The notes below the pieces were generated by a model. The model ran no database searches and was not told the DNA's origin. It saw nothing but the letters and a program-made list of their open reading frames with translations. A DNA stretch of 56,920 nucleotides, taken from IMG/VR virus record IMGVR_UViG_3300039159_000083, positions 1 to 56,920 of that record. One strand, given 5' to 3'. This DNA is from a virus. The position numbers were made by a program, and so were the translations under genes. Numbering within the stretch: position 1 is the first letter of the stretch; each line of letters starts with the position of its first letter. Positions 2,248 through 31,755 of the stretch are shown here, piece by piece.

Positions 2248-5200
2248 TTATCTCTTCTTCTTATATAAAGTATTAATAGCTCTACCTATATTTAACTTGG
2301 TATTACTTGAATTAGGTATGTTCTTTAGGTTACCTGATTTAATACTAGCTATTTGTACTTGAGTACCAAGGGTAAGCCCAGAACTAATCATATCTAAGTA
2401 ACAGGCATAGACAGCGTTAACTACTGCATCTGCCATATCTTTACCTGCTAGATTATGAGTTACCTGACCATTAGGTTTAACTATAATTTCACTAAGTTCA
2501 GTTATAAGAGTAGATATATATACTGAATCCCTGGGTAGTTCTAATAAACCTTGGGATAAAAGATCTCTAAATGTAGTGTAATAAGTTAATTGTTGAACTC
2601 TAGCAGTAGACATCTGCTCAGTAGAGAAACCTAATGTATGTAACTTCTGTATAGAAGATTCAGAGTTAAAGGAGTCAAAGGTAATCTTAGAGGCGTGTCT
2701 AGCTTTACCTAATTCTATAATGCAATCCTCTACATTTTGATAGGAGACATATCTCTGATGACCTGTAGAATCTAAATAGGGTTTCCATCTGATTAGAGCA
2801 TCAAGTGATATACCCCATCTATCATCTGCCATCTTAATGGCATGACACATAGCAAGAGCAGTGGCATCTCTTTTAACTGAGAAGTCTACATGTATGAATG
2901 ACCGGATAGAAGTATTCTTTTCTAATCTAGTTATATCTACTTCTACATATCTCTTAGTCTCAGAAGATATTTCTAAGTTCTTATCTCTCTCTAATGTATC
3001 TATACAAGAGAAACCAGTACAAGCTTTATCACATAGCTGGGCACTTATAAAACCAGTGGATAACTTCCTTCTAATACCTTCATACTCTAACTCAGCCTTT
3101 ACCCTATTCTTAATATAATCAGAGTTACAATTGGCCCTTGATACAGCCTCTAGTTTGTTTAAGTCCCAAGTACGAAGACGGAAGAAGACAGTATCAGGGT
3201 CAGCTTGAGTATCATTAATAAGTCTCTCCATAGGGTCACCAGTACACCATGCAGAGGAGATGGCTACCTTATGTCCTAGAGCACCAAATCTATTGACACC
3301 AGCCCCTACGTTAGAGAAGAGATGATCACCAGCACTTGTAATGGTTCCATCATCTTCTATCTTATTCTCAAAGCGGGCAAACTCATCTAATATCATTGCC
3401 TTAAGGGTATAACCAACTAAAGCCGGTGAGTTAGTATGTTTGGCATAGATGGCAACATTCTTAGCAGGACACTTAATAGTCTCTGCTAGTATCTCTATCT
3501 TCCCAGAGTCTTGCATTGCCTTAAAGAAATAAGAATCTGCAGCATAACCCCTTATCTTAGCAAAGAGAGTATCTTTAACTTGCTCTAAGGTCTGTGCTAT
3601 TACAAAGAGTGCTATAGGGTCATTAGGTAGTAATTTGTAGTGACGGGCAGGATTAGGTAGGGTAATGAGGGAATAGAACTCATATAAGGCTATAATGGCG
3701 GCTATCGTCGAATTGTGAGAAATGATATCATTACCAATAATGTTGGTACCCTTAACCTCTAAAGCTATAGTGGAGGCCGTACCTTCTAAAGTAAGTGATG
3801 CTATAGGTTCCCATAAGATGGGGGCATCAATGAAACAGGAAAGGTCTATAATACCTAACTTGTGGGCGGCATCTTTGGCTTTAGCCTTTGATAATCTATC
3901 CTTCCTGATATAACTATTAGGGGTAAGGCCTAAAGAGGTCCAGCTAACCTTAGATTTATATTTAGCCTTCTCAATAAGATTCAGGGCCCCTTTAGGTAGA
4001 AGTTCTATTCTTTGGTCTCTATCTAATCTCTTACTGATTATTTCTATAGCTTGATTTAAAGCTTCGCCTTTACTATATATACCTATATCTTGAGAGAACT
4101 TAAGAATATCCCTTTTAGTTCTAATAGCTAGTTCCCAAGCATCAAAGTTTTTACTATTGCATGTAGCTATCTTATGGAAGGTGTGTGAGGTAATACCAAA
4201 TTTAAGTAGCTCTCTTTGTATGTCATCAATAAAGTCTTTAGAGGCTAGGGTTATGCCTAGTGTCACCCTAGTGGGAGTACTAGAACAATATCCATCACAA
4301 GAGAACAAACGTGATAGGAAGCTGGCCACCTCTTCTTTAGGGGCTTCTTTAATACATGTTGGTATTCTTTTATTCTTAGATAACTTATCCCACTCTCCTA
4401 AACTCTTTATCCAATTCATTAGAGGATTAGGCGTACCCCCAGTCATCCCAGCTTGGTGGGATATACGATATTGTATCTTGGTGCCACCTATGAGCTTTAT
4501 TCTGTAGCTAGGGAACTCTCTATTTAATATGTCCTGTATATCTTCTATTACCATAGACTGCTCATTGGTAAAAGTGATAGATTCACCTCTTACACTACCA
4601 TCTCCCCATATATAACCTAGGAGGGCAGCTTTATCTAAACCAATGGACTTTCCACCAAATAACTCTTGGGATTTAGCTACAGCTACATAATCCCCTACTT
4701 CTAAGTCTTTAACTTCCACCCATCTAGGTACATCCCAATCATCTCTCCAAACTAGGTAAGGATGTTCCGCAGTAACTTTATCAGCTCTCCCACTCTTAGT
4801 TCTAAGTTCATATACTTCTTTAACGCCATTAAACTCAGTAGCTATGTCGTAGCTAATATACTTTTCCCAGGTAGCAGGGTTATAAGTAAATATTCCTATT
4901 CTTTCTCCTCTAGATAATCTCTGATGTAAATCTCCATAGGAAAGGCTACCTACCGTAGTAGTAATAAAAGAGTCTTCTGAACAGCACTTACTGTTATGCG
5001 AGATTATGGAGTTCCCTATAATACTAGTATCTGTAACTTCTAATCCTACTATTCTTTTCATACCTACTTCGATGAGTTCTTCTACCCCATCCCATCTAAT
5101 ATTAGATTGGGCTAAAGTTTTAAGTTCCTCATCCTTTAGATTAGTAGCATAAGTAATAACCTTTGACTTAGAGGGAGCATATTGCTTTCTAAGTCTGGAA

Positions 5201-6588
5201 TGATCTGTGTTAATCCCTCCAGTAACTTGCCTATTACTAAATTTAAGAGTCTCTTGCTTATCGTTTATCCTATCCCAAACTGAGCAGGGTAGGGTGTCTA
5301 CCTTACATTGAGACCTTATATCTGGGTTAGATGTGATTGCTTCTATAGCCTTCAACTTATCTTCTTTGGAGAAGATGCCAATCTGATGAATGAAGTTAGA
5401 AAGGGATTGTTTATCACTAATAGTTAAGGCCCAGGCATCAAATAGCTTACCATTACACTTGGATGCTTTGTAGTTTACTCTACTAGCTATGCCAAACTTT
5501 ACCAGCTCTCTTTGTATATCTTCTATAAACTCTTTGGAGGCTAAGCATATACCAATAATACATTTAGGATTAGGATGTTTGTCTATTAGTTTACCTACAC
5601 ACGCATATCCATCACAGGCAAATAGTCTTGATAAGAAGGTAGCTATCTCTTCTTTAGGGGCTTGTTTAATACAAGGAGGTATCCTTTTATGAATAGCTAG
5701 TTTACCATGCTCTCCTATTTCTCTTAGCCAACATAAGAGAGGATTACCTTGACCAGGTTTAGCAGATAATGTGTAGCCATACTTTGCTGCCCCTTTTCTT
5801 ATACGTATAGTCGGAAAGGATTCATCTAATATAGATTGTATCTCTTCTATTATTCTAGAGTCCATATTAGTAAACCTAATAGAGGAGCGCTGAGATAAGC
5901 CTCCATCTCCTAATAGATAGCCTAATAGTTTAGCCTTAGCTACTCCTATAGAAGTAGTACCAAATAAGGGAAGGTTATCTAGTACTGCTATACGATCCCC
6001 TACTACTAAATCCTTTAGTTCTACCCATTCTGGTAGCCCCTTTCTCCATATAAGATAAGGGTGGTCATAAGTGCACTCTTCTTCTTTACCCGCCGCAGTC
6101 TTTATTCTTATGGCAGGTTCCTCCCCTTTATCCCAAGTCTTTATGTCATAAGTAGTATAGGATTCCCACGTGTCTGGATTAAGAGTAGTAATTCCTATGG
6201 TTTCTCCTAATAACTTTCTATCTCTTAGTTCTCCATATGTAATAGTTCCTACTGTAGTTATTACATAAGAATCTTCAGAAGGGCATCCACCACGCCCTAC
6301 TTCTAGTATTAAATTCTTATAGCTTCTACCTTCTACCCAATTAGTTCTACCCTCATATTTCCATTGAGCTAATACATTCTTCTCTATATCATTTAGGTCT
6401 TCACCATACATGGTTTTGAGAAGTGCTGTCTGCTGAGGGAATAACTGGGCACTACCATTAAATACAATATCCTCAGCAAACTCTATTATAGATATGGAGT
6501 TATTCTGATTAGACCCTATACCAGCAGCAGCAGAAGTAATAAAACCATCAAAGAGGTTATCTAAGTTAGTGGTTTTCTTATTAACCAT
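2248..6588 (-). CDS. Large terminase subunit with two inteins
   Basis: DNA-packaging motor: ATPase plus nuclease that cuts concatemers and drives DNA into the capsid. The 1446-residue precursor holds residues 1-101 of the ATPase, intein 1 (102-532), Ser533-Lys534, intein 2 (535-959), then the rest of the ATPase and the nuclease. After removal of both inteins the protein is 590 residues, normal for the family. The joined P-loop reads GRGGSKST. Walker B is AMILDEF (Asp1068-Glu1069). The RNase H-like nuclease acidic residues are Asp1235 (HVDF), Asp1305 (TFDSFN) and Asp1384/Asp1387 (KDMADA). ATG 6586-6588 has AGAGG upstream and overlaps the preceding gene by 8 bases. Odd points: both inteins interrupt the P-loop, and the Gly that normally precedes the P-loop Lys is Ser. 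Confidence 0.96.
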   Translation of the reverse strand: MVNKKTTNLDNLFDGFITSAAAGIGSNQNNSISIIEFAEDIVFNGSAQLFPQQTALLKTMYGEDLNDIEKNVLAQWKYEGRTNWVEGRSYKNLILEVGRGGCPSEDSYVITTVGTITYGELRDRKLLGETIGITTLNPDTWESYTTYDIKTWDKGEEPAIRIKTAAGKEEECTYDHPYLIWRKGLPEWVELKDLVVGDRIAVLDNLPLFGTTSIGVAKAKLLGYLLGDGGLSQRSSIRFTNMDSRIIEEIQSILDESFPTIRIRKGAAKYGYTLSAKPGQGNPLLCWLREIGEHGKLAIHKRIPPCIKQAPKEEIATFLSRLFACDGYACVGKLIDKHPNPKCIIGICLASKEFIEDIQRELVKFGIASRVNYKASKCNGKLFDAWALTISDKQSLSNFIHQIGIFSKEDKLKAIEAITSNPDIRSQCKVDTLPCSVWDRINDKQETLKFSNRQVTGGINTDHSRLRKQYAPSKSKVITYATNLKDEELKTLAQSNIRWDGVEELIEVGMKRIVGLEVTDTSIIGNSIISHNSKCCSEDSFITTTVGSLSYGDLHQRLSRGERIGIFTYNPATWEKYISYDIATEFNGVKEVYELRTKSGRADKVTAEHPYLVWRDDWDVPRWVEVKDLEVGDYVAVAKSQELFGGKSIGLDKAALLGYIWGDGSVRGESITFTNEQSMVIEDIQDILNREFPSYRIKLIGGTKIQYRISHQAGMTGGTPNPLMNWIKSLGEWDKLSKNKRIPTCIKEAPKEEVASFLSRLFSCDGYCSSTPTRVTLGITLASKDFIDDIQRELLKFGITSHTFHKIATCNSKNFDAWELAIRTKRDILKFSQDIGIYSKGEALNQAIEIISKRLDRDQRIELLPKGALNLIEKAKYKSKVSWTSLGLTPNSYIRKDRLSKAKAKDAAHKLGIIDLSCFIDAPILWEPIASLTLEGTASTIALEVKGTNIIGNDIISHNSTIAAIIALYEFYSLITLPNPARHYKLLPNDPIALFVIAQTLEQVKDTLFAKIRGYAADSYFFKAMQDSGKIEILAETIKCPAKNVAIYAKHTNSPALVGYTLKAMILDEFARFENKIEDDGTITSAGDHLFSNVGAGVNRFGALGHKVAISSAWCTGDPMERLINDTQADPDTVFFRLRTWDLNKLEAVSRANCNSDYIKNRVKAELEYEGIRRKLSTGFISAQLCDKACTGFSCIDTLERDKNLEISSETKRYVEVDITRLEKNTSIRSFIHVDFSVKRDATALAMCHAIKMADDRWGISLDALIRWKPYLDSTGHQRYVSYQNVEDCIIELGKARHASKITFDSFNSESSIQKLHTLGFSTEQMSTARVQQLTYYTTFRDLLSQGLLELPRDSVYISTLITELSEIIVKPNGQVTHNLAGKDMADAVVNAVYACYLDMISSGLTLGTQVQIASIKSGNLKNIPNSSNTKLNIGRAINTLYKKKR
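3712..4986 (-). other. Intein 2 in terminase P-loop, LAGLIDADG type
   Basis: 425-residue protein intron, precursor residues Cys535 to Asn959, inserted between Lys534 and Ser960, two residues after intein 1. Block A begins CCSEDSFI; block B has Thr606-x-x-His609; the end is GNDIISHN with His958 and Asn959, and the +1 residue is Ser960. LAGLIDADG motifs are LLGYIWGDGS (Asp663) and FLSRLFSCDG (Asp765). It matches intein 1 over the splicing and endonuclease parts but differs in the linker before block F, so it is a diverged paralogue rather than a fresh copy. Confidence 0.95.
4993..6285 (-). other. Intein 1 in terminase P-loop, LAGLIDADG type
   Basis: 431-residue protein intron, precursor residues Cys102 to Asn532, inserted between Gly101 and Ser533. 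Splicing block A starts with Cys102 (CPSEDSYV). Block B has Thr173-x-x-His176. Block F/G ends GNSIISHN, with penultimate His531 and terminal Asn532; the +1 residue is Ser533. The central homing endonuclease has both LAGLIDADG motifs, LLGYLLGDGG (Asp228) and FLSRLFACDG (Asp326), so it looks catalytically intact. It is clearly homologous to intein 2 throughout. Boundaries come from matching both inteins end to end and from restoring the P-loop. Confidence 0.95.
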
Positions 6589-7498
6589 TACTAGCCTCTA
6601 GAGTTAATCTAATAATGTTATCTCTAGAGAAGGCGGCAGGTCTCCTATTAATAAGACCCATACTCTGTCTGAGAAGACTGGTATTTAATTCCTCTCCTAA
6701 TGCTATATAGAATAGATACTCATTAGCTTGTATAAACCTATCATCTCCAGCACCTATTAGATTGATTAGTTCAAGGGGTGTTTGATTATTAAGCTGGATA
6801 AAGAACCAACCACTCTCTTTAGGGAAGTATATAAATAGAGAGTCATCACTTGATAAGTAATGCTCTTCTTTTATAGTTAGAGGATTAGAACTTACATACT
6901 CTAAGGTAGGAGGAGTATGACCTACTGACTTAAGGAATAAGGTAGTAATAGTAATAGAAGATGGCCCATTAAGAAGGACTTGAGAACATTCAATATTGAT
7001 ATAGTTATTGGATGGTTCTATAGAAGGAGGGGCAGGTACTCTAATAGCATCATCATCAGAGATGGGATTGGATAATCTTAATGCTAAGTTATTAATAATT
7101 AAGAGGGATTGCTGTATACCTTGGAAGGTGGTATAAGTCAGGTAGAACATATAACCAGTCATACTTTGAAGCACTAAAGCCTTATCTAAAAGGGACTCGC
7201 CCCAAATAGCCCCATGCTTAGTTACTCGATATAGAAGTCTGCCATCTATATCATTTATCTTATAACCATGGGAAGGAATAATAGAATCCTCTTCTGAGGC
7301 ACCCTTCATTTCAAATAGGAAATCCCAAGGGGATATTACTTTTATCTCTCCTGAGTGGGATAGAAGTCTAGATATTTTAAAGGTGGTTGAGAAATCATCA
7401 TCAGCTAGACTAATCTGTCTTATCATAGCTTCTGGCCCCCCAAACTTCTGAGAGGTATAGTAATATCTCTGTCTAAGTTCTTCTAGTATCTCTTCCAT
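6581..7498 (-). CDS. Hypothetical protein upstream of terminase
   Basis: 305 residues, ATG 7496-7498 with AAAGGATATAG as ribosome site, and an 8-base overlap with the terminase start that suggests translational coupling. The N-terminus (MEEILEELRQRYYYTSQKFG) is a charged helix; the rest appears beta-rich, with segments such as GDDRFIQANEYLF near the end. No enzyme motif is visible. The small-terminase position is suggestive, but the protein is long for one and lacks an obvious DNA-binding helix-turn-helix, so I do not assign it. Confidence 0.7.
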   Translation of the reverse strand: MEEILEELRQRYYYTSQKFGGPEAMIRQISLADDDFSTTFKISRLLSHSGEIKVISPWDFLFEMKGASEEDSIIPSHGYKINDIDGRLLYRVTKHGAIWGESLLDKALVLQSMTGYMFYLTYTTFQGIQQSLLIINNLALRLSNPISDDDAIRVPAPPSIEPSNNYINIECSQVLLNGPSSITITTLFLKSVGHTPPTLEYVSSNPLTIKEEHYLSSDDSLFIYFPKESGWFFIQLNNQTPLELINLIGAGDDRFIQANEYLFYIALGEELNTSLLRQSMGLINRRPAAFSRDNIIRLTLEASNG

Positions 7499-7548
7499 CT
7501 ATATCCTTTATATCTCCTATATTCCCTATATTCTCTATATTCTCTATG
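7499..7548 (-). repeat. Short tandem repeat in ribosome-binding region
   Basis: The 45-base gap between two genes is built from degenerate 10-11-base units of the form GAATATAGAG on the minus strand, ending in AGGAGATATAAAGGATATAG just before ATG. Several units resemble ribosome-binding sites. Confidence 0.6.
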
Positions 7549-8056
7549 CCACAAAGCTATTAATATTAATTGGAACACTTAACTTATACTTCTCTGGGGC
7601 TTGTAGTATAAGGCCTCTATTACCTGCTGATAGGATACGTGAGGTAACTGGAATGACTGCAATTAAATCACCCTGAAAGTCTCCTCTATTATTACCATTA
7701 GAAGGAGACATATCAAAGATGTTGGCCCCTCTAGCTACACAGGCATGAGAGAAGGGGCCGATATCTCCAGCTATAGCTTGGAACTCAACTCTAATTAATA
7801 TAGATGAGTTAGAAGAGGTATGTCTTAACTCAGGTTCTTCTACATAGGATCTTTTATATCCATTAAGAGTGAGACCCCCTATCTCATGTAGGACTGCCTC
7901 ATTCATTGTTAGAGTTCTCCTTTTGTTATACTCCATTTCACTAGGAGTATCATCATAACCAAGGTCAACTTTATTAATGAGAAAGACTATTAAGCCATAA
8001 CCTAAATAGTCCTTAGCAATCTTTTCTCTTATTTGATTGGATATTGTAGGAAGCAT
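7544..8056 (-). CDS. Hypothetical protein, probable virion component
   Basis: 170 residues, ATG 8054-8056 with AAAAGG about 10 bases upstream. It lies between the fibre cluster and the genes leading to terminase. The protein looks beta-rich, with no signal peptide or membrane segment. The middle carries Gly/Asn-rich loops (MSPSNGNNRGDFQGDL near residue 115) and a run of hydrophobic strands to the C-terminus. I do not recognise the family. A structural role is inferred from context only. Confidence 0.65.
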   Translation of the reverse strand: MLPTISNQIREKIAKDYLGYGLIVFLINKVDLGYDDTPSEMEYNKRRTLTMNEAVLHEIGGLTLNGYKRSYVEEPELRHTSSNSSILIRVEFQAIAGDIGPFSHACVARGANIFDMSPSNGNNRGDFQGDLIAVIPVTSRILSAGNRGLILQAPEKYKLSVPININSFVA

Positions 8057-8079
8057 TGTAAAAGAACCTTTTATTTTTA

Positions 8080-8955
8080 TTAACCTATTACCACTACTCT
8101 ATATTGATTAGTAGTAGGAGCCACTGAGAATGTCAGGGTAATAGTATTTACAGTCGTATGATCTATATCAGTAATAATATAAGAGTAAGGAGATGCAGTA
8201 GTGTAAATATGGGCAACTACATCTCTAGTATTAAGGTTATGAGTGATGGTGATAGAGGTACTACTACCATCCCCTATAGAAGTATTATATTTACCAACTC
8301 CAGTAGGTCTTGAATCTACATATAATTTAGTTACTGCATCTGTATCCAGAGTAGGAGTAGCTAAGTTAGTTATCTTATTAGAGTTAAGGTTTAAGTTAAC
8401 TGTAGGGGCAGCTAGTTGATCTAATCTATTAGTACGTACCTGAGTATCAAAGTTACTAATAGTAGATGCTAACTGAGAGCCACTATGATTAGTTCTAGAT
8501 AGGTAATAAGTACCTACCTGACTTTCTAGTTGACTAGCATTACTGGCTAAGCCTGTTAAGGGGCCTATAAAACTAGTGGCAGTGATAGCACCACTACTAT
8601 CTCTTAGGGTAAGTGTAGAAGCTGTAGATAAGGCAGTAGCCCCATCTAATTTATCTTTATCACTTATAGATAGACTACCTGCAGTAATAGATGAAGCAGC
8701 GGGTATACCTATAATAGGTGCCTGACTAGTACCTGTATTGACTAAGGGGGCACTAATAGTTATAGAACTTATAGAGTTATCAGCTCCTACTAATGACTGC
8801 CATATTGTCCCATCAAAGTTACGTAAGGCTTTAGTAACAGTGTCATAATATAATTGCCCTTCTAAAGGTGTAGAAGGGGCAGTACTTAACCTATGTATTA
8901 CTGCCTGTCTTAATTCATTCTGATTAAGGTCTAGGTGGAATTGAACTTGTGGCAT
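8080..8955 (-). CDS. Tail fibre protein, short paralogue
   Basis: 291 residues, ATG 8953-8955 with a strong AGGAGG site at spacing 4. Modules in order: an N-terminal attachment-like segment with EGQLYYDTVTKALRNFDG (about residues 34-51), typical of phage fibres; a Ser/Thr/Gly-rich shaft; a segment with NHSGSQLAST and NRLDQLAAP also found in the 1031-residue fibre; a DAVTKLYVD motif; and a C-terminal beta domain with ITITHNL shared with three other fibres here. It most likely forms part of the host-recognition fibre set at the baseplate. The assignment as fibre is firm; the receptor is unknown. Confidence 0.85.
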   Translation of the reverse strand: MPQVQFHLDLNQNELRQAVIHRLSTAPSTPLEGQLYYDTVTKALRNFDGTIWQSLVGADNSISSITISAPLVNTGTSQAPIIGIPAASSITAGSLSISDKDKLDGATALSTASTLTLRDSSGAITATSFIGPLTGLASNASQLESQVGTYYLSRTNHSGSQLASTISNFDTQVRTNRLDQLAAPTVNLNLNSNKITNLATPTLDTDAVTKLYVDSRPTGVGKYNTSIGDGSSTSITITHNLNTRDVVAHIYTTASPYSYIITDIDHTTVNTITLTFSVAPTTNQYRVVVIG

Positions 8956-8974: not shown

Positions 8975-9024
8975 AGTTAGAGTTAGAGTTAGAGTTAAAA
9001 TTGAAGCTAGAGTTAGAGTTAACT
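8975..9024. repeat. Hexamer repeat (AGTTAG) between two fibre genes
   Basis: The plus strand shows interrupted tandem copies of GTTAGA between the 671-residue and 291-residue fibre genes, broken once by AAATTGAAGCT. It overlaps the stop codon of the upstream fibre gene. Such simple repeats arise by slippage and may act as a recombination point between fibre genes. Confidence 0.75.
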
Positions 9025-11034
9025 TGTATAAGTAATTACTACCTTAAATTGATTTAAGGTAGGGGCAACTGTAAATACAAATTGTAAGGCGTTATTACTT
9101 ATTCTTCTTACAGTAGGAATAACATCTTCAAAGCTATTTCCATTCTCATATACCTGCCATATAACATTCTTAGAACCTAAGTTATGAGTGACAGTAATAG
9201 AATTATTAGTTCCATCTCCCACATCAGTAGTAAAAGCTGTAGTGTTAGAAGAACCACCGCCGCCCCCATCTAGAGATACCCAACTTGAGGTACTAGCTCT
9301 GTAATATTGGAAGTTATTAGAAGCCCATCTAAGGGTTCCTTTATCATTTCCTTGTCCTAAGACTAGATAACCCTGACTACCAGGTAAGGCAGCTATAGTA
9401 AGATTTCTATCTCCTACTACAGGAATAAGAGGTGAAGGTAATACAGGGGCTTGATCTCCATAACCTATTAATATGTTTCCTTCACTATTAATAGTGAGAG
9501 AATCTAATAAGAGATTGGAACCATCTGCTTTGACCTTAAATCTAAGGCCTCCACCTATATTAACTGCAACACCTTCAGCATAACCTTCTATAATACTCAC
9601 ACTCTTTAGAGGCTGAGTAGAAGAAGATAGGTTGAAACTGACTCTACCTGCCACATCCCCAGCAGTAATACTGGATTTAGGGTTATTAAGTAGAAGTAAT
9701 CCAGGTCTATCTACCTTACCTGATACAGTAAGAAGAGTATCATTAGGGTTAAATACAACACCTAAGGTGGGGTCACTTAATCCTATTCCTACATTACGTG
9801 TAGTTATAAGACTATTACCTATAGTATTCTGTATAGATAAGGGGCCGGTAAGCGTTCCTCCAGTAAGAGGTAGATAAAAACCAACTACTCCAATAGCAGT
9901 TAATAAATCATTACCTCTCCGACCTATAAAGGTTCCTGTGTTATCAATTATAGGTATTGTTCCTTCATCTCCTGTGAGAGAAGGTATAACACTTATCTCA
10001 TTTAGGTTAGAGGAGGGAACTAGGTAATCTGTGCCAGGTATAGCAGCAGTAAAGGCAGAAGTACCACTACCTTTAATTAGTCCTGTAAGGGTAGCTACTC
10101 CAGTACCTCCTCTATTAACAGGTAGGGTACCAGTTACATTAGAGGCTAAGTTAAGTAATCCCCAGCTAGCTTCAGTAGTGGGGCCTTGACTACTAAGTAC
10201 TTGTCCTGTAGTACCCCCAGCCACTTGTAAATAACCTAGGTTATTTATAAGGGTAATAGGGCTAAAGTCTAGACTAAAGACATCTCCAATCTTAGATATA
10301 GGTGCTGCTGCTTGATAAGAAGCAACACTAGAGAATTGGGTAAAGACTAAGTCTGTGCTATTAAGAGTGATGGGGGCATTAGTAATTAGTACCCAACCAG
10401 TATCTGCTTGAGTGATACCTTCTTGAATAAAGATGAAGGAACCAGGGGATACTTCAATTGAAGTATCATAATCGCCAGCTCTAATCCAAGTTCCAGTATC
10501 AACTATATAAATACCATTTTCAACAGGAAGCAGTTGGTCTTTAACTAAAATCCTATCTCCTGCAACTAAGAGGATTCCATCTATAGTCTGAACACCTGTT
10601 AAAGCTATATCACTAATAGTAGCTACCCTAGCAGAGTCTTTAATATCAAGCCCAGTAGCTATTGCATCAACATAGGCCTTATTTGTAGCATCATTGGGTA
10701 GGGTAGGTGAGGCTAGGTTTATTAACTTCTGTGAGTTAAAGGAGACTGATAAGTTAGGGGCAGTTAATTGATTTAATCTTTGCCCTTTAACATAAGCAGT
10801 TGTAGCTAGTCTCAAACTACTATCAGTTAGAGTAGGTGTAGGAGCAGTAGGAGTACCAGTAAATACTGGACTATTTCTAGGGGCAAATACTCCTAATCCT
10901 CCTACTGCAACTACTGATCCAGCCTTACCTATAAACAAGGTGTCTGATAGATCAGACCAGGCTAGTTCTCCATTAAATAATACGGTTGGTTCCGCAGAAC
11001 TAATACTTCTCTTTATAAGAATAGTATTGGTCAT
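9019..11034 (-). CDS. Tail fibre protein, 671 residues
   Basis: ATG 11032-11034 overlaps the stop of the preceding gene (TAATG) with GGAGG upstream, so translation is coupled. The N-terminus is a common fibre start (IKRS near residue 7, NGELAW near 21) followed by the PVFTGTPTAPTPTLTD repeat (56-71) and ATTAYV. DATNKAYVD (115-123) leads a module (about 115-235, with GDRILVKDQ and NGIYIV) also present in the 1031-residue fibre. A PVNRGGTG repeat follows, then a long beta-rich shaft. The C-terminal domain (about 598-671) has ITVTHNLG, shared with the other fibres. It acts outside the virion as part of host adhesion. Confidence 0.9.
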   Translation of the reverse strand: MTNTILIKRSISSAEPTVLFNGELAWSDLSDTLFIGKAGSVVAVGGLGVFAPRNSPVFTGTPTAPTPTLTDSSLRLATTAYVKGQRLNQLTAPNLSVSFNSQKLINLASPTLPNDATNKAYVDAIATGLDIKDSARVATISDIALTGVQTIDGILLVAGDRILVKDQLLPVENGIYIVDTGTWIRAGDYDTSIEVSPGSFIFIQEGITQADTGWVLITNAPITLNSTDLVFTQFSSVASYQAAAPISKIGDVFSLDFSPITLINNLGYLQVAGGTTGQVLSSQGPTTEASWGLLNLASNVTGTLPVNRGGTGVATLTGLIKGSGTSAFTAAIPGTDYLVPSSNLNEISVIPSLTGDEGTIPIIDNTGTFIGRRGNDLLTAIGVVGFYLPLTGGTLTGPLSIQNTIGNSLITTRNVGIGLSDPTLGVVFNPNDTLLTVSGKVDRPGLLLLNNPKSSITAGDVAGRVSFNLSSSTQPLKSVSIIEGYAEGVAVNIGGGLRFKVKADGSNLLLDSLTINSEGNILIGYGDQAPVLPSPLIPVVGDRNLTIAALPGSQGYLVLGQGNDKGTLRWASNNFQYYRASTSSWVSLDGGGGGSSNTTAFTTDVGDGTNNSITVTHNLGSKNVIWQVYENGNSFEDVIPTVRRISNNALQFVFTVAPTLNQFKVVITYTS

Positions 11035-11540
11035 TAAAATGATCCTCCATCAACTGTTAAATTAGTTATGTATACATCTAAATCTTCTATAGCACTTTGA
11101 ACATTAGTAGCACTAATATTAGTAGTTGCTATAGAGGTAATGGTTGAGGCAGCATGAATATGCGCGGAGGTCGCAAAAGCAGAACTAGGTTGAGTAGCTG
11201 CCGAACCTAATCCTAGGTTTGTTCTAGCTTGAACTAAACTAGTTAGGTCTGATAAGTTATTAGTTCTTACTAAAGCATTAGGAGTTCCAGCACCACCACT
11301 AGTTTGTAAGCTAAGAAGACTAGCATTAGGATTAGTAAACCAATCTGTTTCTCCTGTAATAGTCTTTATTCTATTAAGAATCCAAGGTAGCCACTCATCA
11401 AGAGTGGCCGCTTGGTTTGATAAGGGTATAGTGCTACTAGGGTATGGACCAAATAACTCTGTTTTAGTGCCTGTTAATTGGTAAGTAGCATCACCTCTAT
11501 ATCTAATACCCCCTTGGGCTTCTATTCTTCCTGATCTCAT
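11034..11540 (-). CDS. Short tail fibre-like protein, 168 residues
   Basis: ATG 11538-11540 with GAGG upstream. Contains the fibre-repeat signature NNLSDLTSLVQARTNLGLG (about residues 93-111) followed by an Ala/Ser/Thr-rich segment with SAHIHAAS, common in phage fibre shafts. It lacks the THNLG C-terminal domain of its neighbours. One-base overlap with the next fibre gene and 4-base spacing from the preceding one place it in the same translation unit. It could be an adaptor joining fibre segments; that is an inference. Confidence 0.8.
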   Translation of the reverse strand: MRSGRIEAQGGIRYRGDATYQLTGTKTELFGPYPSSTIPLSNQAATLDEWLPWILNRIKTITGETDWFTNPNASLLSLQTSGGAGTPNALVRTNNLSDLTSLVQARTNLGLGSAATQPSSAFATSAHIHAASTITSIATTNISATNVQSAIEDLDVYITNLTVDGGSF

Positions 11541-11544
11541 TTGT

Positions 11545-14037
11545 TTACCTCACTAAGGCTAATGTCCATATACCTGGTATAGGCGTAGGAGTATTATATG
11601 AAATTAGACTAACGATTAGTGTGTTATCATCTATTACTTCTATTTCATCTGGGATTACTACTCTATTAGAGTTATTCCAAAGGGTAACACTAGATAATCT
11701 GAGTTTACCTAAGTTATGAACTACGGTAAGTGAATTACTAACTAGGTTAGATGCTTGGAAATCTATAGAGAAAGGTAACACTAAATCAGGTAGTTGAATT
11801 AGAGGAACCTTAGCATCAGAGCCTAGACTAGCCACACCGTTAGCTACAGCCTTCTGAGTAAGAGGTATAGCCCCTACTTGGACTGCAGTTACACTATGAG
11901 GGTTATTAGTAAGAGATGAGTGAAGACTTACTTCTTGTAGGGCTGCTTGAGCATTAGTACTAAGCAAAGTACCTACAGGGGTAAAGGTAATCTGTGATGC
12001 AGTATAATCACCAAGCATCGAAGTAACTATACCAGCTCTTCCATAGATTGAGGTTACTGTACCACTACCACTGGGAGTGAGAAGCTCTTGCCAATTAGCA
12101 ATATCAGTAGCAGGTAATCCTTTTAATATAAAGGAGACATTAATATCAGTTCTTACAGCTACATCACCTATGCTATCAGCACTTAATGCAAGCATGGATG
12201 GTTCACTACCAACTACATATACATCAGTAATGTTAAAGGCAGGTAGTTGATTAGTAGGAACCTTTCCATTACCATCTAGAGAGGCAATACCATTAAACTG
12301 AGCTATGCTATCTAATCTAGCAAAGGTAGAATCTATGGAACTCTTTAGATAAACAATAGGGTTAACACTATTAACATCAGATCTTACAGTACCTGATATG
12401 GTAATAGAGGCCACCTCTTCATCTCCAGTATTAACCCCTGATAGGTTAGATGCTGAGATAAGTCCATTGGCATTTACATTTCCACCAAAGACAGAGTTAC
12501 CACTAACAGAAAGAGATGTAAGAATAGCAGACCCATTTACATCTAAATTACTATTGGCTACTATAGAACCAGTAATAAAAGAGGCTGAAGATAAGTTACC
12601 TACTACAAGTCCATTACCAGATAATATTAAATCTCTACCATTAATATCACCAAGTACTACTAAGTCACCTTCTATTGATTGAGAACCTTCTACTATTAAA
12701 TCATTCTCAAAGGTAGCCTCACCTCTAGTAATAGAAGCTCCTCTAACATCTTGGTTACCAAGTATAAGAACATTAGTACCTACACTAAGATTAGTAGTTA
12801 TGACAGAGGAACCTGAGGTTAATACCCCAGTCACACTTGCCGTAGTTCCTACAGATAAGGCACCTGCTAATGTAGTAGCGCCTCCTATGGAGGTATCACC
12901 TACTATAATGGCTGTCTGTCCTCTAAGTGCTCCACCAGCTGTTATATCGCCAGCACTGCCTAGTATAGAAACAGTAGTAGGGCCTACAACATTAAGAGTA
13001 CCTGTTAAAGAAGTATTTCTACCAACAGATAGGTCTCTAATAACTGTAAGGTCATTACCTACAGATACATTACTACCAGCATTTACTTGGCCATTAAGAT
13101 TACTAATTCCTCCTATACTAAGAGAGGAAGGGCTAGTTATACTGCCTGTGATATTAATATCACCAGCTATAGATACATCATCTCCTACAGTTAAATCATC
13201 TTGTATAGTCAGGTCATTAGTAGTAAGAACACCTGTAACTGTTAGGTTATTACCAAATAGTGAGGCACCATTTACAGTTAATGAACCGTTAATTAAAGAG
13301 TTACCACCAATATTAGTAGCTCCTGTTACTGTCAAGGAAGTACCAACTAATAAGCTACTTGTAGTATTGACAACACCTATTAAACTAGTAGTACCTTGAA
13401 CTGATAGGGTAGAGCTAAGATTGGTAGCACCACCTACTGTTAATACACTGGCAAGAGTAGTAGCTTGGGCTACTGCAAGAGTAGCATTGGCTAATATAGG
13501 GGCTTGGAAGGTGGCTTGATTATCAACCCTTAAGGTTCCTAGTAATATCGTACCTGAGGTTACTGATAGAGTAGACCTTAGGTCAGTACCTTGATTAACT
13601 CTTAGAGTGCCATCTATTATGACATTTCCTGAGTTAATATCATTAGTAGTAAGAAGTCCTACTATACCTACCGCACCACTAGCTTGTAGAGTATTAACAG
13701 TGGTACTACCACTAAAGGATTTATTACCAAGCATTACTTGGTTAGAGTATAAATCTACTCTTTCCTCATAAGCTAAACCTCTAGGTGAAGCAGTAGCACT
13801 AATTAGACAATATTTATCAACACCAGGGGGTAATTGGCTTATAGCCTGAGCATTGGTCTTAGTAACTAGATAACCCTTATCTGCGGGCTCTACTCCATTA
13901 CTAGAGAGTTCTATAGCATCTATAAGACCATTGATCTTATTAACTACTGCAGTACCATTAGACCCTAAGATTGGGTCTTCATATATATAATCGTTATCGC
14001 TACCTATGATTATCTTATAGGTTTGTAAGTTAGGCAT
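11545..14037 (-). CDS. Long repetitive tail fibre protein, 830 residues
   Basis: ATG 14035-14037 with GGAGG, overlapping the upstream gene by 8 bases. The central part (about residues 100-530) is many degenerate repeats of the pattern Gly-x-Leu-x-Val-x-Gly-x-Thr-x-Leu with short-period Val/Leu/Gly/Asn, as expected for a trimeric beta-helical shaft. Near residues 600-700 there are common fibre segments (LDGNGKVPTNQLPAF, SIYGRAGIVT). The C-terminus carries SLTVVHNLGKL, the domain shared with the other fibres. The low stop frequency on the opposite strand comes from the repetitive Thr/Val/Ser codons. Confidence 0.88.
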   Translation of the reverse strand: MPNLQTYKIIIGSDNDYIYEDPILGSNGTAVVNKINGLIDAIELSSNGVEPADKGYLVTKTNAQAISQLPPGVDKYCLISATASPRGLAYEERVDLYSNQVMLGNKSFSGSTTVNTLQASGAVGIVGLLTTNDINSGNVIIDGTLRVNQGTDLRSTLSVTSGTILLGTLRVDNQATFQAPILANATLAVAQATTLASVLTVGGATNLSSTLSVQGTTSLIGVVNTTSSLLVGTSLTVTGATNIGGNSLINGSLTVNGASLFGNNLTVTGVLTTNDLTIQDDLTVGDDVSIAGDINITGSITSPSSLSIGGISNLNGQVNAGSNVSVGNDLTVIRDLSVGRNTSLTGTLNVVGPTTVSILGSAGDITAGGALRGQTAIIVGDTSIGGATTLAGALSVGTTASVTGVLTSGSSVITTNLSVGTNVLILGNQDVRGASITRGEATFENDLIVEGSQSIEGDLVVLGDINGRDLILSGNGLVVGNLSSASFITGSIVANSNLDVNGSAILTSLSVSGNSVFGGNVNANGLISASNLSGVNTGDEEVASITISGTVRSDVNSVNPIVYLKSSIDSTFARLDSIAQFNGIASLDGNGKVPTNQLPAFNITDVYVVGSEPSMLALSADSIGDVAVRTDINVSFILKGLPATDIANWQELLTPSGSGTVTSIYGRAGIVTSMLGDYTASQITFTPVGTLLSTNAQAALQEVSLHSSLTNNPHSVTAVQVGAIPLTQKAVANGVASLGSDAKVPLIQLPDLVLPFSIDFQASNLVSNSLTVVHNLGKLRLSSVTLWNNSNRVVIPDEIEVIDDNTLIVSLISYNTPTPIPGIWTLALVR

Positions 14038-19496: not shown

Positions 19497-22400
19497 TTAT
19501 GCACCAGCAGAGATTGCACTAACACTTAGAGGGCCAGTAGGTCCACCGAATGTAAGTGTAAAGCTGTTAGCTGATTGAGAAACATTAGAAGGAACTTCAA
19601 CTTCACCAGCGTTATCTACACAGAATACCAACACACGTTGAGTAGCTGTTAGACCCAAGTTATGGGTGATAGTAACCGCGTAGTTAGGGCCAGCACCAAC
19701 TATGGTTGGGGTAATAGGGGCACTGGTAGTAAAGCTCCTAGGAATACCTAAGTTAACCTGAGCCGCAGCTAATGTGGTAGCACCTGTACCACCTTTAGCT
19801 AGGGTTAGAACACCACCTAGGTTAGGAAGAAGGATGTTAGCTTCAACTACATCTAAGGTAACTGTAGAGGCGCCGCCTACTACAACTACTTTATTGGTGG
19901 CCGCTTCTAAACCTTTAAGATTTAGAGTGAAACCAGTTCCAGCTACGCCTGTTCTATCTCTGAAGATAGATACACCACCAGCAGAAGCTGCGGTAGTAAC
20001 ACCATTCAAGTTAAAGAGAGCAGCACCAGCAGTAATAGCATTGGTACCACCTTTAGCTATAGATAGCACACCACCTAAGGCATCTAGGTCTAGTTGAGCT
20101 TCATTAACTGAGAAGGTAACATCATTACCAGAGGAAGCAACAGCAACTTTAGGGCCACCAGTTATACCATCTAGAAGAGATGCAAGTCCTTTGAATTCAA
20201 GAAGGTTAGTAGCACCCGATGTATTCTTACTAAGGAAGATGGATTGTCCAGCACCCAAGTTAGAAGCATTGGCTACACCACCAAGATTCTTTAGACCTTG
20301 ATCAGCAGTAATAGCATTAGTACCACCTTTAGCAATGGTGAGAACACCACTCAAGTTATTGATGGGGATTTGAGTCTCATCAATATCAATAGCTAAATCA
20401 AAAGGTGTAGCGCTAGTAGTAACTTTAGGAGAACCAGCTAGAACTCCTTTCATGTACTGTCTACTAGAATCAGCCCCATCTCTAGCTCCTACTATGGTAG
20501 CTCCAGTGGAAGAAGGTTCTTTAAGAACTGTACCTATAGCACCAAGATTACGTAGTGCTTGAATAGCAGTAGCAGCATTAGTACCACCTTTAGCAATAGG
20601 AGTAATACCAGTAATCTTAGAAGTGGTTATATCAAGAGCGCCACCTAAGTTTTGTAGCAATAGGTTAGCTTCTACTACATCAAAAGTGATAGTAGTAGCA
20701 GTTTCTTGAACCGCAGCTCTGTTACCAGTAGCAGCTAGTAAAGTTCTTAAGTTTAGGTCGGTATTAGAATCCTTACTGATAAAGACTCTAGCAGCTCCAC
20801 CAACGTTAAGAGCAGTACGAGCGGCATCAATATTAACTCTTGCATCTATTGCAGTAGTAGCATTAGTACCACCCTGATCAATTCTCATTGGAGCAGTGAA
20901 GGGAGCACTTAGGCTAGTAATGTCAGCGTTAGCCCCAGACTTAGCAGTCTGTAGGTTAGTTCTAGCAGTAGAAGGGTCAGAAGCACCAGTACCACCTTGA
21001 GTAACACTGAGGGGTGTGGTTAGGCCAGTTAACTGAGTAATATCAGAGTTAACACCAGACTTAGCGGCTTGTAGGTTAATACGAGCATCAGCTATAGTAG
21101 AGGCTCCTGTACCACCTTGTGGGATGGAAAGAGGAGTAGTAAGACCTACTAGTTGGCTGATATCGCTATTGACTCCAGACTTAGCAGCTTGCAAGTTATT
21201 ACGAGCTTGAGCAGCTGTAGTAGCTCCAGTACCACCAAAGGTAAGGTCTACAGGAGTAGACTGCCATCTACCAGCGGTGACGGTACCAAGTGTATTAATA
21301 GATGTCTGACCAGGATAGATAGGGTCTATACCAATCTGATCAGGATAAGCAATTATCTCACCAGGTTTACCAATGGCATGGACAACATTACCAGTCTTGA
21401 TAAGACCATCGCCAGCACTAAACTGACCAGGTTGACCAAAGGTCAAGTTAGAGACACCTAAGACCACAGGGCCATTAGGACTAGTCATTAACCATTCAGT
21501 ATCAGAGAATGCTACGCCATCTTGAGCATATAGCATTACACCAGCAGATAGTTTATCACTAGTATCTGCATCAGGGGCTCTCATCCAAGCGCCAGCTTGA
21601 GCAACATAGATACCATTAGCTCTAGCATCTGATTGACCAGCAACCAAAACTCTATCGCCAATGTTAACAGTACGTCCATCAACTACCTGAGTACCAGCTA
21701 GAGATATACCAGATACTGCAACTACTCTAACAGGAGCTTTTACACTCACTTTAGATAGAAGCTCATCTACATACTGCTTGTTAGCTGCATCTTTAGGGGC
21801 AACGGGATCCTTTAGGTTACTAAACCCAAAGTTAACCATGCTGAAGTTATTGATGGGTGGTGTCAAGTCAGATAGAGAGATATTATCAATAGATGAATCT
21901 ACATATCTCTTGTTAGCTGCGTCTTGATCTAGAATAGGATTCTTAATATTAAGAAGTCTATTATTAGCTATATCTACATCACCAACAGGACTAGCCATCT
22001 GATCTAATCTATTGATTCTAACTGACTCATGAAAGTCAACAATAGTAGAGGCAGGTTGTACGCCTGTGTGATTCATCCTGTTAAGAGGATTTACTTCTAG
22101 CTTGGATAGCTTGATATTAGCAGAGGCTGAAATATCTCCATCTACAATAGCACCAGGAGCTATTGAAACTTCATTCGAGAAGCCACTAGAAACTAAGTCT
22201 CCAAATAGAGCAGGGATAATAACTGGAGAACCATTAGGAGCGCCACCAGGAACACCAGGAGCACCCACACCAGGAAACTCAACCCAACCAGTACCATTCC
22301 AGTAGTAAGCTCTCTTACTTAATAGGTTATAGTAAACATCACCTTCATTAGGGTTAGGAGGAGCCGCATTTCTAGCATTGAACTTCGACATTGAAAGAAT

Positions 22401-22592
22401 CTGTAGAAGAGCAGGACTCATCTCAATGGAGATAAAGTTCCTATAAGGGAAACTACCACTCATCATATAAATGAGCTCTTCCCTATCTTCTGACTTATCC
22501 ATATCAAGGTAATAGACACCACCTTGCTTTAAAGAAACTCTCTTACTGCCATATACATGGACAAAACTACGCAATACTGAGATCCGGATCAT
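19497..22592 (-). CDS. Major long tail fibre protein, 1031 residues
   Basis: ATG 22590-22592 with AAAGGAG at spacing 10. N-terminal module (1-58; LKQGGVYYLD, REELIYMMSGSFPYRNFISIEM) resembles the start of the 195-residue protein at 55248-55835, suggesting a shared docking site. Then a GDVYYN...YYWNG fibre segment (84-100), NHTGVQPASTI (174-184), a DAANKQYVD module (268-388, with NIGDRVLVAG and NGIYVAQ) shared with the 671-residue fibre, and four 40-residue QGGTGA...NLQAAKSGVNSDI repeats (about 452-600). Four more GGTN/GGTG repeats follow, and a C-terminal VTITHNLG domain. Codon use is somewhat more G+C-rich than neighbours, as for an abundant product. It ends at a strong terminator. Confidence 0.92.
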   Translation of the reverse strand: MIRISVLRSFVHVYGSKRVSLKQGGVYYLDMDKSEDREELIYMMSGSFPYRNFISIEMSPALLQILSMSKFNARNAAPPNPNEGDVYYNLLSKRAYYWNGTGWVEFPGVGAPGVPGGAPNGSPVIIPALFGDLVSSGFSNEVSIAPGAIVDGDISASANIKLSKLEVNPLNRMNHTGVQPASTIVDFHESVRINRLDQMASPVGDVDIANNRLLNIKNPILDQDAANKRYVDSSIDNISLSDLTPPINNFSMVNFGFSNLKDPVAPKDAANKQYVDELLSKVSVKAPVRVVAVSGISLAGTQVVDGRTVNIGDRVLVAGQSDARANGIYVAQAGAWMRAPDADTSDKLSAGVMLYAQDGVAFSDTEWLMTSPNGPVVLGVSNLTFGQPGQFSAGDGLIKTGNVVHAIGKPGEIIAYPDQIGIDPIYPGQTSINTLGTVTAGRWQSTPVDLTFGGTGATTAAQARNNLQAAKSGVNSDISQLVGLTTPLSIPQGGTGASTIADARINLQAAKSGVNSDITQLTGLTTPLSVTQGGTGASDPSTARTNLQTAKSGANADITSLSAPFTAPMRIDQGGTNATTAIDARVNIDAARTALNVGGAARVFISKDSNTDLNLRTLLAATGNRAAVQETATTITFDVVEANLLLQNLGGALDITTSKITGITPIAKGGTNAATAIQALRNLGAIGTVLKEPSSTGATIVGARDGADSSRQYMKGVLAGSPKVTTSATPFDLAIDIDETQIPINNLSGVLTIAKGGTNAITADQGLKNLGGVANASNLGAGQSIFLSKNTSGATNLLEFKGLASLLDGITGGPKVAVASSGNDVTFSVNEAQLDLDALGGVLSIAKGGTNAITAGAALFNLNGVTTAASAGGVSIFRDRTGVAGTGFTLNLKGLEAATNKVVVVGGASTVTLDVVEANILLPNLGGVLTLAKGGTGATTLAAAQVNLGIPRSFTTSAPITPTIVGAGPNYAVTITHNLGLTATQRVLVFCVDNAGEVEVPSNVSQSANSFTLTFGGPTGPLSVSAISAGA
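20877..21236 (-). repeat. Three tandem 120-bp units in the long fibre gene
   Basis: Residues 453-572 of the fibre consist of three 40-residue units beginning GGTGA and containing NLQAAKSGVNSDI; a fourth, more diverged unit follows. The repeat resembles the GGTGATT...NLG type found in many phage fibres. Unit number can change by recombination, altering fibre length. Confidence 0.85.
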
Positions 22593-22660: not shown

Positions 22661-23893
22661 ATGCTTGATACAGTAGGCAAAAGGCAAGGTTATCTATCTG
22701 GCTCTATAGATGGAGATGGATATAGCATAAACTACGAATATGATAAGCCAGATAGGAGCAATACAGAGATAGTTAAAAGGGTGGGATTTACTAATACTGA
22801 CTTATCAATATTAGAAGCTTTTAAGTCCTGTCTTAATTCCTTGAACGTTAGCTATGGAATGAGTTCACAAAAGACCGTGACAAATAAGGATAGCTATAAC
22901 ATCTCCTGTTCTAATAAAGAAGGGCTATGTGTGTTATCTAGTAATACATACTTAAAGGTTTTATATAAGGAAGAGGCCCTAACTAAAACTTTAGAGTCTG
23001 TTTATCTTCATGGAGATAAACCTATAAAGTTATGTAGCTTTGAAGATATGGACTTCAAATTAGGCTGGCTGGCGGCTATGTTAGATTCTGAGGGTTGTAT
23101 CCTTTATAGCAAAACTAACTACTCAATAAGGATATGTAATACGGACTTAGAAGTTATTGAGTATTGTCAACAGATATTAGAAAGCTTGCATATAGCCTAT
23201 AAAACTTACTCTCATAATAAACAGAATAAAGATGGAATAGTTAGAAAGCCTACACATCAAGTTTGTATATTACAAGCCAAACATATATTAAGGTTTAGTA
23301 GCTTAGTGCCTATCCAATCTGAAAGGAAGATAGAGAAACTAAAAGATCTATGTACTTATTTAAGTAGAGATAAATATAGATTTTCCACAGAAGAACTTGC
23401 TAGGATGCATGTAGAAGAAGGTCTTAGCTTCTCAGAGATAGGTAGAAGATTAGGTGTTGGCGAGTGTAGGTCAGGAGGTTTGGCTAAGCAGGTAAGGGAA
23501 GGAGGGTATGTAGTCAACACTATAAAATCTAGAGGGCCTTATGCAGCTTTGGATGTTAATGACTCTCAGCTTAAGGAGGTCTATGATAGACTTCTGAAGG
23601 GTGAATCAATGAGCCAGATACTTATCTCTATGGGCTTTAAAGCTAATAGAGGTACTACTATATATAAACTATTAGACTCTAAAGGTTATAAAGTAGATAG
23701 CGGTCATGGAAAACTATATAAATTATTAGATACATTGGGAGCAGAAGAGATTATAAAAAGGTTGGACTTAGGAGTTACAGCTTCTAGAATACTTAGAGAT
23801 GCTGGAATTGAAACTAGGTCTACAACTTCTTTGTTTAACTATCTAGAAAAAGCTGGTCATGATGTAACTAAGTATAGAAGAAAGAAGAACTAA
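22661..23893 (+). CDS. Free-standing LAGLIDADG homing endonuclease
   Basis: A 410-residue protein on the strand opposite to all neighbours. Two LAGLIDADG motifs are visible: GYLSGSIDGDGY (10-21) and LGWLAAMLDSEG (134-145), each with the acidic residue needed for metal-dependent DNA cutting. The C-terminal half carries helix-turn-helix-like units: SFSEIGRRLGVGE near 255, and two later segments with SMSQILISMGF and TASRILRDAGI, suggesting extended DNA contacts. ATG 22661 lacks a clear ribosome site, as is common for such genes. It sits between two tail genes and is followed by a weak terminator. It is not inside an intron or intein that I can see. Confidence 0.88.
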   Translation: MLDTVGKRQGYLSGSIDGDGYSINYEYDKPDRSNTEIVKRVGFTNTDLSILEAFKSCLNSLNVSYGMSSQKTVTNKDSYNISCSNKEGLCVLSSNTYLKVLYKEEALTKTLESVYLHGDKPIKLCSFEDMDFKLGWLAAMLDSEGCILYSKTNYSIRICNTDLEVIEYCQQILESLHIAYKTYSHNKQNKDGIVRKPTHQVCILQAKHILRFSSLVPIQSERKIEKLKDLCTYLSRDKYRFSTEELARMHVEEGLSFSEIGRRLGVGECRSGGLAKQVREGGYVVNTIKSRGPYAALDVNDSQLKEVYDRLLKGESMSQILISMGFKANRGTTIYKLLDSKGYKVDSGHGKLYKLLDTLGAEEIIKRLDLGVTASRILRDAGIETRSTTSLFNYLEKAGHDVTKYRRKKN

Positions 23894-23949: not shown

Positions 23950-24327
23950 ATGGTAAAAATAGATAACTTAAGAAATACTAAGATAGGAATCAGAGTTGAT
24001 AGAAGTTCTGCCCTTGGTAATCCTTTTGATCTAGTTAATACTAGAGATGTGGTTATGAGACTTAGAGTATGCAATGCTTATCAAGAATACTTTGACTTAA
24101 TAGAAAAGGGGGCCGAACCTATTAATATAGTAAAGCTTCTTTGTACTAAGTACTTTGTCAGTATTCATTCCACATGGAAAGCACCAAATAGAAGAATGTT
24201 CTTGGAAGCTCTTAGTGATATAGGAGCTAATGACACTCTTCTGTGCTGGTGCACTCCAGAGTTGTGTCATGCCTTAACTATAAAGGAATGGAAGGATTCT
24301 AATAAGTCCTTAGAAACAGATTCCTAA
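23950..24327 (+). CDS. DUF4326 family protein
   Basis: 125 residues, ATG 23950 with a strong AGGAG site. It shows the family marks: LGNPF (residues 22-26), a helix with Arg, and the C-terminal LLCWCTPELCHALTI (97-111), whose Cys-Trp-Cys and Cys-His (Cys99, Cys101, Cys106, His107) may bind metal. DUF4326 proteins are scattered in phages and bacteria and have no established function that I can state. The 3' end overlaps the end of the 905-residue minus-strand gene by 29 bases, tail to tail. Together with the homing endonuclease it forms a plus-strand island in a minus-strand region, consistent with later insertion. Confidence 0.85.
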   Translation: MVKIDNLRNTKIGIRVDRSSALGNPFDLVNTRDVVMRLRVCNAYQEYFDLIEKGAEPINIVKLLCTKYFVSIHSTWKAPNRRMFLEALSDIGANDTLLCWCTPELCHALTIKEWKDSNKSLETDS

Positions 24328-31202: not shown

Positions 31203-31755
31203 TCATTAGTTCTATCTTCTGTTTCTTATTTACTAATCTATCTATGGGTGTAGAGTAAGCAACCCAATGAAGTATACCTTGATCTTCTACATAAGAAGAA
31301 GGATAACTAATTAAATTAGGGTTATGTTCTTCTATTAAGGAGACATCAGTATGTAACCCTAGTATTCTAATAGAGGAGGCTAGATAGTAATCAGGTTCGA
31401 TTAGACAAGAAATATATAAATGAGTAGGGCTAGGTAAATACATGCCCTTCTCTAAAGTTATATCTGTTAAATCTCTAATCACATGCCATTGCTTATTTCT
31501 AAATAGGAACTCACCACAAGGAGAGATAAGAGCCGGTAAACACTCATATAACCTAACTATAGATATAAGTTCTGTCACCTCTGTAAGAGAGGAGGAGGGA
31601 TTAGGAGGATTAGTATCATTGATGTTAGTATCAAATACATCTAACCATGCAGAGTCCTTAGATAAGGACATATACTTATTAGAAGGGTCTCTAACAAAGG
31701 ATAGAATCCTATTAGCCTTATTAGATAAAGTAAGTGAATTATGTATGATAGACAT
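31192..31755 (-). CDS. Small baseplate wedge-like protein
   Basis: 187 residues, ATG 31753-31755 overlapping the flavoprotein stop by one base (TAATG), with GGAGAG upstream. The pattern MSLSKDSAWLDV...NPPNPSSS (29-56) recalls phage wedge proteins in which a short strand precedes a Trp-Asp...Pro-Pro-x-Pro segment, as in many cyanophage baseplate proteins. The rest alternates strands and helices. No enzyme motif. Its place between the I-like wedge region and the two giant tail proteins supports a baseplate role. The family call is tentative. Confidence 0.6.
   Translation of the reverse strand: MSIIHNSLTLSNKANRILSFVRDPSNKYMSLSKDSAWLDVFDTNINDTNPPNPSSSLTEVTELISIVRLYECLPALISPCGEFLFRNKQWHVIRDLTDITLEKGMYLPSPTHLYISCLIEPDYYLASSIRILGLHTDVSLIEEHNPNLISYPSSYVEDQGILHWVAYSTPIDRLVNKKQKIELMIDL

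Follow-up and report, generated by a model that had tools for sequence, protein, structure and literature searches.

The window analysed here is the whole of a 56,920-base IMG/VR virus record from an uncultivated cyanophage-like virus, and its gene for the terminase large subunit precursor (terL) was found on the minus strand at positions 2248..6588 as a single unbroken open reading frame of 1446 aa. The precursor reads ...LILEVGRGG / CPSEDSY...IIGNSIISHN / SK / CCSEDSF...IIGNDIISHN / STIAAII..., where the slashes, here and below, mark junctions between exteins and inteins. All parts of the precursor lie on the minus strand. The N-extein (aa 1-101, 6286..6588) ends in ...LILEVGRGG, the first part of Walker A, and was aligned with intein-free TerLs. 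The first intein, int1 (aa 102-532, 431 aa, 4993..6285), occupies the site GRGG/SK, here called P2, and is followed by a middle extein of two codons, AGT AAG (4987..4992), encoding Ser533-Lys534. Ser533 takes the +1 nucleophile position of int1, and Lys534 is the Walker A lysine. The second intein, int2 (aa 535-959, 425 aa, 3712..4986), lies at the classic K/S P-loop site, here P3. The C-extein (2251..3711, stop codon at 2248-2250) begins with STIAAIIALYEFY... and contains the Walker A Ser/Thr, Walker B (MILDE), motif III (ISSAW) and the nuclease Asp residues in DFS, FDSF and KDMADAV. The original prediction had placed two inteins inside one P-loop with only Ser533-Lys534 between them; this is confirmed by the reading frame and by the alignment of relatives, and the coordinates and residue numbers given for both inteins were exact, correct to the base.

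Removal of both inteins leaves a protein of 590 aa that matched PHROG terminase large subunit families (phrog_2, 3e-15; phrog_9, 3e-9) and aligned in a single piece with the terminase of Microcystis phage LMM01, with 45% identity over 92% of its length. Pfam and PDB sequence searches with the TerL gave no match. Homology to annotated TerLs, Walker A and B, motif III and the nuclease Asp residues identify the protein as a large terminase. The spliced P-loop, VGRGGSKST, is a deviant Walker A, having V for the first Gly and Ser for the Gly preceding Lys. It aligned without gaps with the P-loops of intein-free TerLs, namely ECGRRGGKSV (LMM01), EAGRRGSKSA (Microcoleus phage My-WqHQDG), EAGRRGSKST (the IMG/VR relative L006) and also AGRGSGKSV, and [GST]K is conserved among the intein-free relatives at the position of the middle extein. 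Because the P-loop is colinear and gap-free in these relatives, the intein boundaries are fixed and the middle extein is exactly Ser-Lys, in agreement with the extein residues first proposed. A start of int2 at the second Cys of 'CC' was rejected, as it adds a residue to the P-loop that the relatives keep gap-free. The tail sheath gene also indicates the Microcoleus phage My-WqHQDG/Microcystis phage group.

An alignment of int1 with int2 spans 439 columns at 44% identity (E 9e-111). Both begin with Cys1, contain the block B TxxH (T72/H75) and end in ISHN with Ser at +1 (SHN/S). The block F His is missing, being Ser in int1 and Asn in int2, at a position that is variable in related inteins too; in class 1 inteins this His is common, not universal, and hence not decisive. 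The LAGLIDADG motifs are LLGYLLGDG and FLSRLFACDGY in int1 and LLGYIWGDG and FLSRLFSCDGY in int2, and with acidic residues present in both motifs (GDG, CDG) of each intein both are predicted to carry homing endonucleases (HENs). Homology between the two inteins, complete splicing motifs in each and a pair of LAGLIDADG motifs that keep Asp had all been part of the original prediction and were all recovered, with the block F His replaced. Pfam LAGLIDADG_3 matched int1 at 4e-15 and int2 at 3e-21. Pfam Intein_splicing has a cut-off of 35.8 bits, which int2 exceeded (39.7 bits, 5e-10) and int1 did not reach (29.3 bits, 9e-7); NCBIfam intein_Nterm, with a cut-off of 24.5 bits, was passed by int1 (24.9 bits) and failed by int2 (18.5 bits). 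Both inteins also gave long matches to models of intein-bearing replicative helicase, RFC and gyrase in Pfam and NCBIfam. The AlphaFold2 model of int1, made from int1 with ten relatives (pLDDT 89.1, pTM 0.90), has a Hint splicing domain and a LAGLIDADG endonuclease. Its top PDB match in Foldseek was the TliVMA intein (7qss, E 1.3e-19), with PI-PfuI and PhoVMA also matched, and the Hint part further matched RecA, RadA and DnaB inteins. When int1 and int2 were modelled in tandem, the int2 half was intein-like, mostly with pLDDT 70-94, and the int1 half was poor; the PDB matches of this model were TliVMA and PI-PfuI. Judged by sequence, int1 and int2 are class 1-type, HEN-bearing inteins that are predicted to splice.

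Elsewhere in the window a free-standing LAGLIDADG endonuclease-like gene (22661-23893, plus strand; PF14528, 7e-14) lies on the opposite strand amid late genes and is adjoined by a DUF4326 gene (23950-24327). A gene resembling FAD-dependent lysine/ornithine monooxygenases (31755-32864, minus strand; PF13434, 2.7e-11) sits among tail genes, an odd location for a metabolic gene. Large tail-fibre-like genes (9019-14037 and 19497-22592, minus strand) show repetitive motifs of the types TKS..NAD.., GGTGA and 'VTHNLG'.

Relatives were gathered by IMG/VR scans with alignment queries, whereas searching viral contigs with the C-extein as the single query protein returned nothing. A set of genome contigs contained no relatives, and an extra scan using a second TerL family added no further contig. 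The series of alleles with none, one or two inteins, by which the original prediction could be checked, was supplied by the IMG/VR scans. The P-loop was empty in L006, L007, L008-L024 and L023, and L068. L025 has a single intein at the exact site of int1 (GRGG/C...HN/SKSLIAS), with P3 empty and the endonuclease decayed. Single inteins one codon upstream, at a site here called P1 (GRG/C..HN/SSKS), were found in L030, L067 and L069-L071; that of L030 has lost one LAGLIDADG motif (CDG to CNG), and those of L067 and L069-L071 are mini-inteins of 149 aa. The intein-free L068 falls among the intein-bearing L030, L067 and L069. At the Lys/Ser or Lys/Thr site of int2, single inteins were found in other TerLs, those of L072 and L074 (GRRGTK/C..HN/ST), and in the TerL of Bacillus phage KLEB27-3 at Lys/Thr (GRRIGK/C..HN/TW). 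Two inteins in one P-loop were found in the TerLs of the window and of L063. The allele with int1, SK and int2 was present in one assembly only, and when IMG/VR was scanned for the HN-SK-CCSED joint with a degenerate pattern, no further copy turned up, near copies possibly being missed. Among related P-loop inteins the insertion site shifts by one codon, from GRG/SSK in L030, L067 and L069 to GRGG/SK in L025 and the window, an apparent slide. Inteins also occur at a TerL site proximal to the C motif, N[VI]G[KR]G/C...SHN/T, in L025 (4771-5994) and L026 (4720-5991).

The double intein of L063 (IMGVR_UViG_3300009448_000011, 3841-6000) lies at the Lys/Ser P-loop site of its TerL, which reads EAGRRASK / ALDLNTLIETPEG...NNIITHN / CNSSSAIIATTKGDITYGEL...GIISHN / STMASII. 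The first of the pair is class 3-like: it starts with Ala1 and so lacks a position-1 nucleophile, shows the W-C-T signature of class 3 (GHLW, VKCI, ITHN) and aligns with solved inteins of the gp41-1/DnaB type bearing WCT. It matched 672 phage records, 541 of them over 80% or more of its length in a single stretch, and the TerL of Synechococcus phage B23, which is among these matches, has an insertion at the K/T site too. The second is class 1-like, belongs to the family of int1 and int2 and is unrelated in sequence to the first. Zero extein residues separate the two, both being at the K/S site, and therefore the first intein would have to use Cys1 of the second as its +1 nucleophile; both splicing orders would yield SK-ST. 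Both the L063 and the window TerLs belong to one family and carry two inteins per P-loop, but the L063 pair is unrelated and 0 residues apart, whereas the window pair is related and 2 aa apart. This zero-spacing stack may be even more unusual than the pair in the window. A third intein lies in the nuclease domain of the same L063 TerL (7045-8100; FDQWN/C...INHN/SQSL).

The origin of the window's pair was approached through an intein tree that is shallow, with 8-13 rows and long branches. Once the longest branches had been removed, int1 grouped with the upstream-site P1 inteins with support 95/96. Int1 and int2 as sisters were disfavoured (AU p 0.039 with the longest branches left out and 0.029 with all rows), and the grouping of int2 with the inteins of L072 and L074 was weak (69/78). 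Int1 would belong to a lineage of the upstream P-loop positions (GRG/S.. or GRGG/SK), and int2 sits at the classic Lys/Ser site. Since int1 goes with the upstream-site inteins and the sister grouping is disfavoured, two acquisitions appear likelier than duplication in place, and by these comparisons two separate invasions are favoured. One intein copied in place, the copies then diverging, could account for the 44% identity over the whole length and for several block sequences in common, but it is improbable because, besides the tree and the AU tests, int1 is as close to the L072 intein, at the P3 site of another gene (46%), as to int2 (44%), and the insertion points of int1 and int2 are two codons apart. 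Mis-assembly, a false join in a mixed population between alleles that each carry one intein, could be suspected in a metagenomic contig whose double allele occurs in one record only. It is nevertheless very improbable, as the joint runs from the C-terminus of int1 through 6 bp into int2, a sequence absent from either single allele, as all 1446 codons are open in frame with uniform GC and codon use, and as the independent contig L063 has a comparable stack. GC and codon use of both inteins match the phage genes, so that neither looks very recently imported from a compositionally different genome, and with intein GC equal to that of the phage genes there is no sign of contamination. In the tree of exteins, TerLs with and without inteins were intermixed, a pattern that would be expected under intein gain and loss. 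Because the two sites, 6 bp apart, must fall in the recognition sites of both endonucleases, an allele that already holds one intein should be hard to target; under two separate invasions the stack could have arisen either because a half-changed site was tolerated or because alleles with one intein each recombined. In haloarchaeal MCM, neighbouring inteins show co-homing interference, yet invade singly occupied alleles well (PMC10643990). By analogy with these, sequential invasion is the better guess as the route to the double allele.

Intact motifs and established intein chemistry predict two independent excisions. Each intein would proceed through an N-S shift at Cys1, transfer to the +1 Ser and Asn cyclisation with the SHN triad; whichever leaves first, the other would keep its normal context, and both orders would give GRGG-SK-ST. 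Until both are excised the P-loop would remain split, and precursor TerL should not bind ATP, so the dependence of the packaging ATPase on both splicing events, as originally suggested, would fit all the evidence. Splicing of both inteins, its order and the endonuclease activity are what we infer. Cross-pairing, in which the N-half of int1 and the C-half of int2 remove both inteins plus Ser-Lys and leave GRGG-ST, is chemically conceivable for adjacent homologous inteins, but the product would be without the Walker A lysine kept in all relatives, and inteins that are 44% identical should cross-pair little, as a side reaction at most; as the main outcome it is extremely improbable. The original prediction had also proposed a post-translational switch for packaging, and this found no positive support. 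In such a switch the two inteins would form an AND-gate, and conditional splicing, responsive for instance to redox or metal, would delay or control the terminase and make packaging a late step. Conditional splicing does occur at P-loops, since DnaBi1 in the DnaB P-loop of M. smegmatis is redox-sensitive (PMC6195587), and both window inteins have catalytic cysteines, the Cys-Cys start of int2 perhaps permitting a local disulfide. Against such a gate, the P-loop intein is absent from close sisters (L068, within the P1 group, L006, L007 and LMM01), HEN decay and the patchy distribution of inteins gained and lost among relatives suit mobile elements, and the tested mycobacteriophage TerL inteins spliced fast (PMC5050341). 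Conditional splicing is not favoured for the window's inteins and seems quite improbable. The intein-free sisters, the endonuclease-less mini-inteins and the patchy distribution would be consistent with a homing cycle, and we infer that int1 and int2 are mainly selfish elements, not a switch. A broader reading, that TerL P-loops are invaded repeatedly, with inteins stacking 2 or 0 residues apart and serial splicing usable as a double gate for packaging, is doubtful.

Taken together, the TerL of this LMM01-like cyanophage relative very probably holds two HEN-bearing inteins of class 1 type that were acquired independently and are stacked in Walker A, each predicted to be self-splicing. Inteins are thought to require an intact homing target and a working local splicing context. 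The dipeptide-extein pair of the window and the zero-extein pair of L063 make both assumptions testable: splicing can be followed beside a neighbouring intein and with a +1 nucleophile that doubles as the catalytic Cys of another intein, as can the way in which homing gets to a site that is already interrupted at a distance of 6 bp. One TerL family has natural alleles with none, one and two inteins, which provide matched constructs, and the case is of clear interest for intein specialists.

Inteins in P-loops, inteins in TerLs and genes that hold several inteins are already known. In the open-access literature, subscription papers being largely outside its scope, no published case of a P-loop with two inteins was found, and the arrangement, which is genuine and occurs more than once, seems not to have been described before. 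Its description as very unusual is supported by the mycobacteriophages, where 50 TerL1 inteins were found in 50 intein-containing TerL1 proteins, so one in each (PMC5050341). The tested representatives of these splice, and the HEN of TerL1-b is active (PMC5050341). Like the window, TerL1-a and TerL1-b use neighbouring P-loop positions of TerL. TerL1-a sits between K and S or T, the position taken by int2 (SK/ST), so int2 is a TerL1-a allele by site; TerL1-b is 1 aa from TerL1-a, whereas int1 is 2 aa from the site of int2 and does not have the TerL1-b position (PMC5050341). In structure, int1 and the tandem model came closest to TliVMA/PhoVMA (7qss, 7qst), which likewise combine a Hint domain with a LAGLIDADG endonuclease but differ in their archaeal ATPase host, in having one intein per P-loop and in their 18% identity. 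M. smegmatis DnaBi1 is, like int2, a P-loop intein with the Walker A Ser at +1, and its host has a second intein, as in the window, but in motif H4 and not in the P-loop; DnaBi1 is a class 3 mini-intein, whereas int1 and int2 are class 1-type (PMC6195587). The haloarchaeal MCM-a and MCM-d resemble the window in being two HEN-bearing inteins of one ATPase gene, with MCM-a in Walker A, but lie in different motifs, Walker A and the DNA channel, and in the available portion of that paper overlapping targets are not reported, whereas the window's two targets, 6 bp apart, must overlap (PMC10643990). TerL1-a and TerL1-b occur in different phages (PMC5050341), whereas the window fills two P-loop positions in one molecule.
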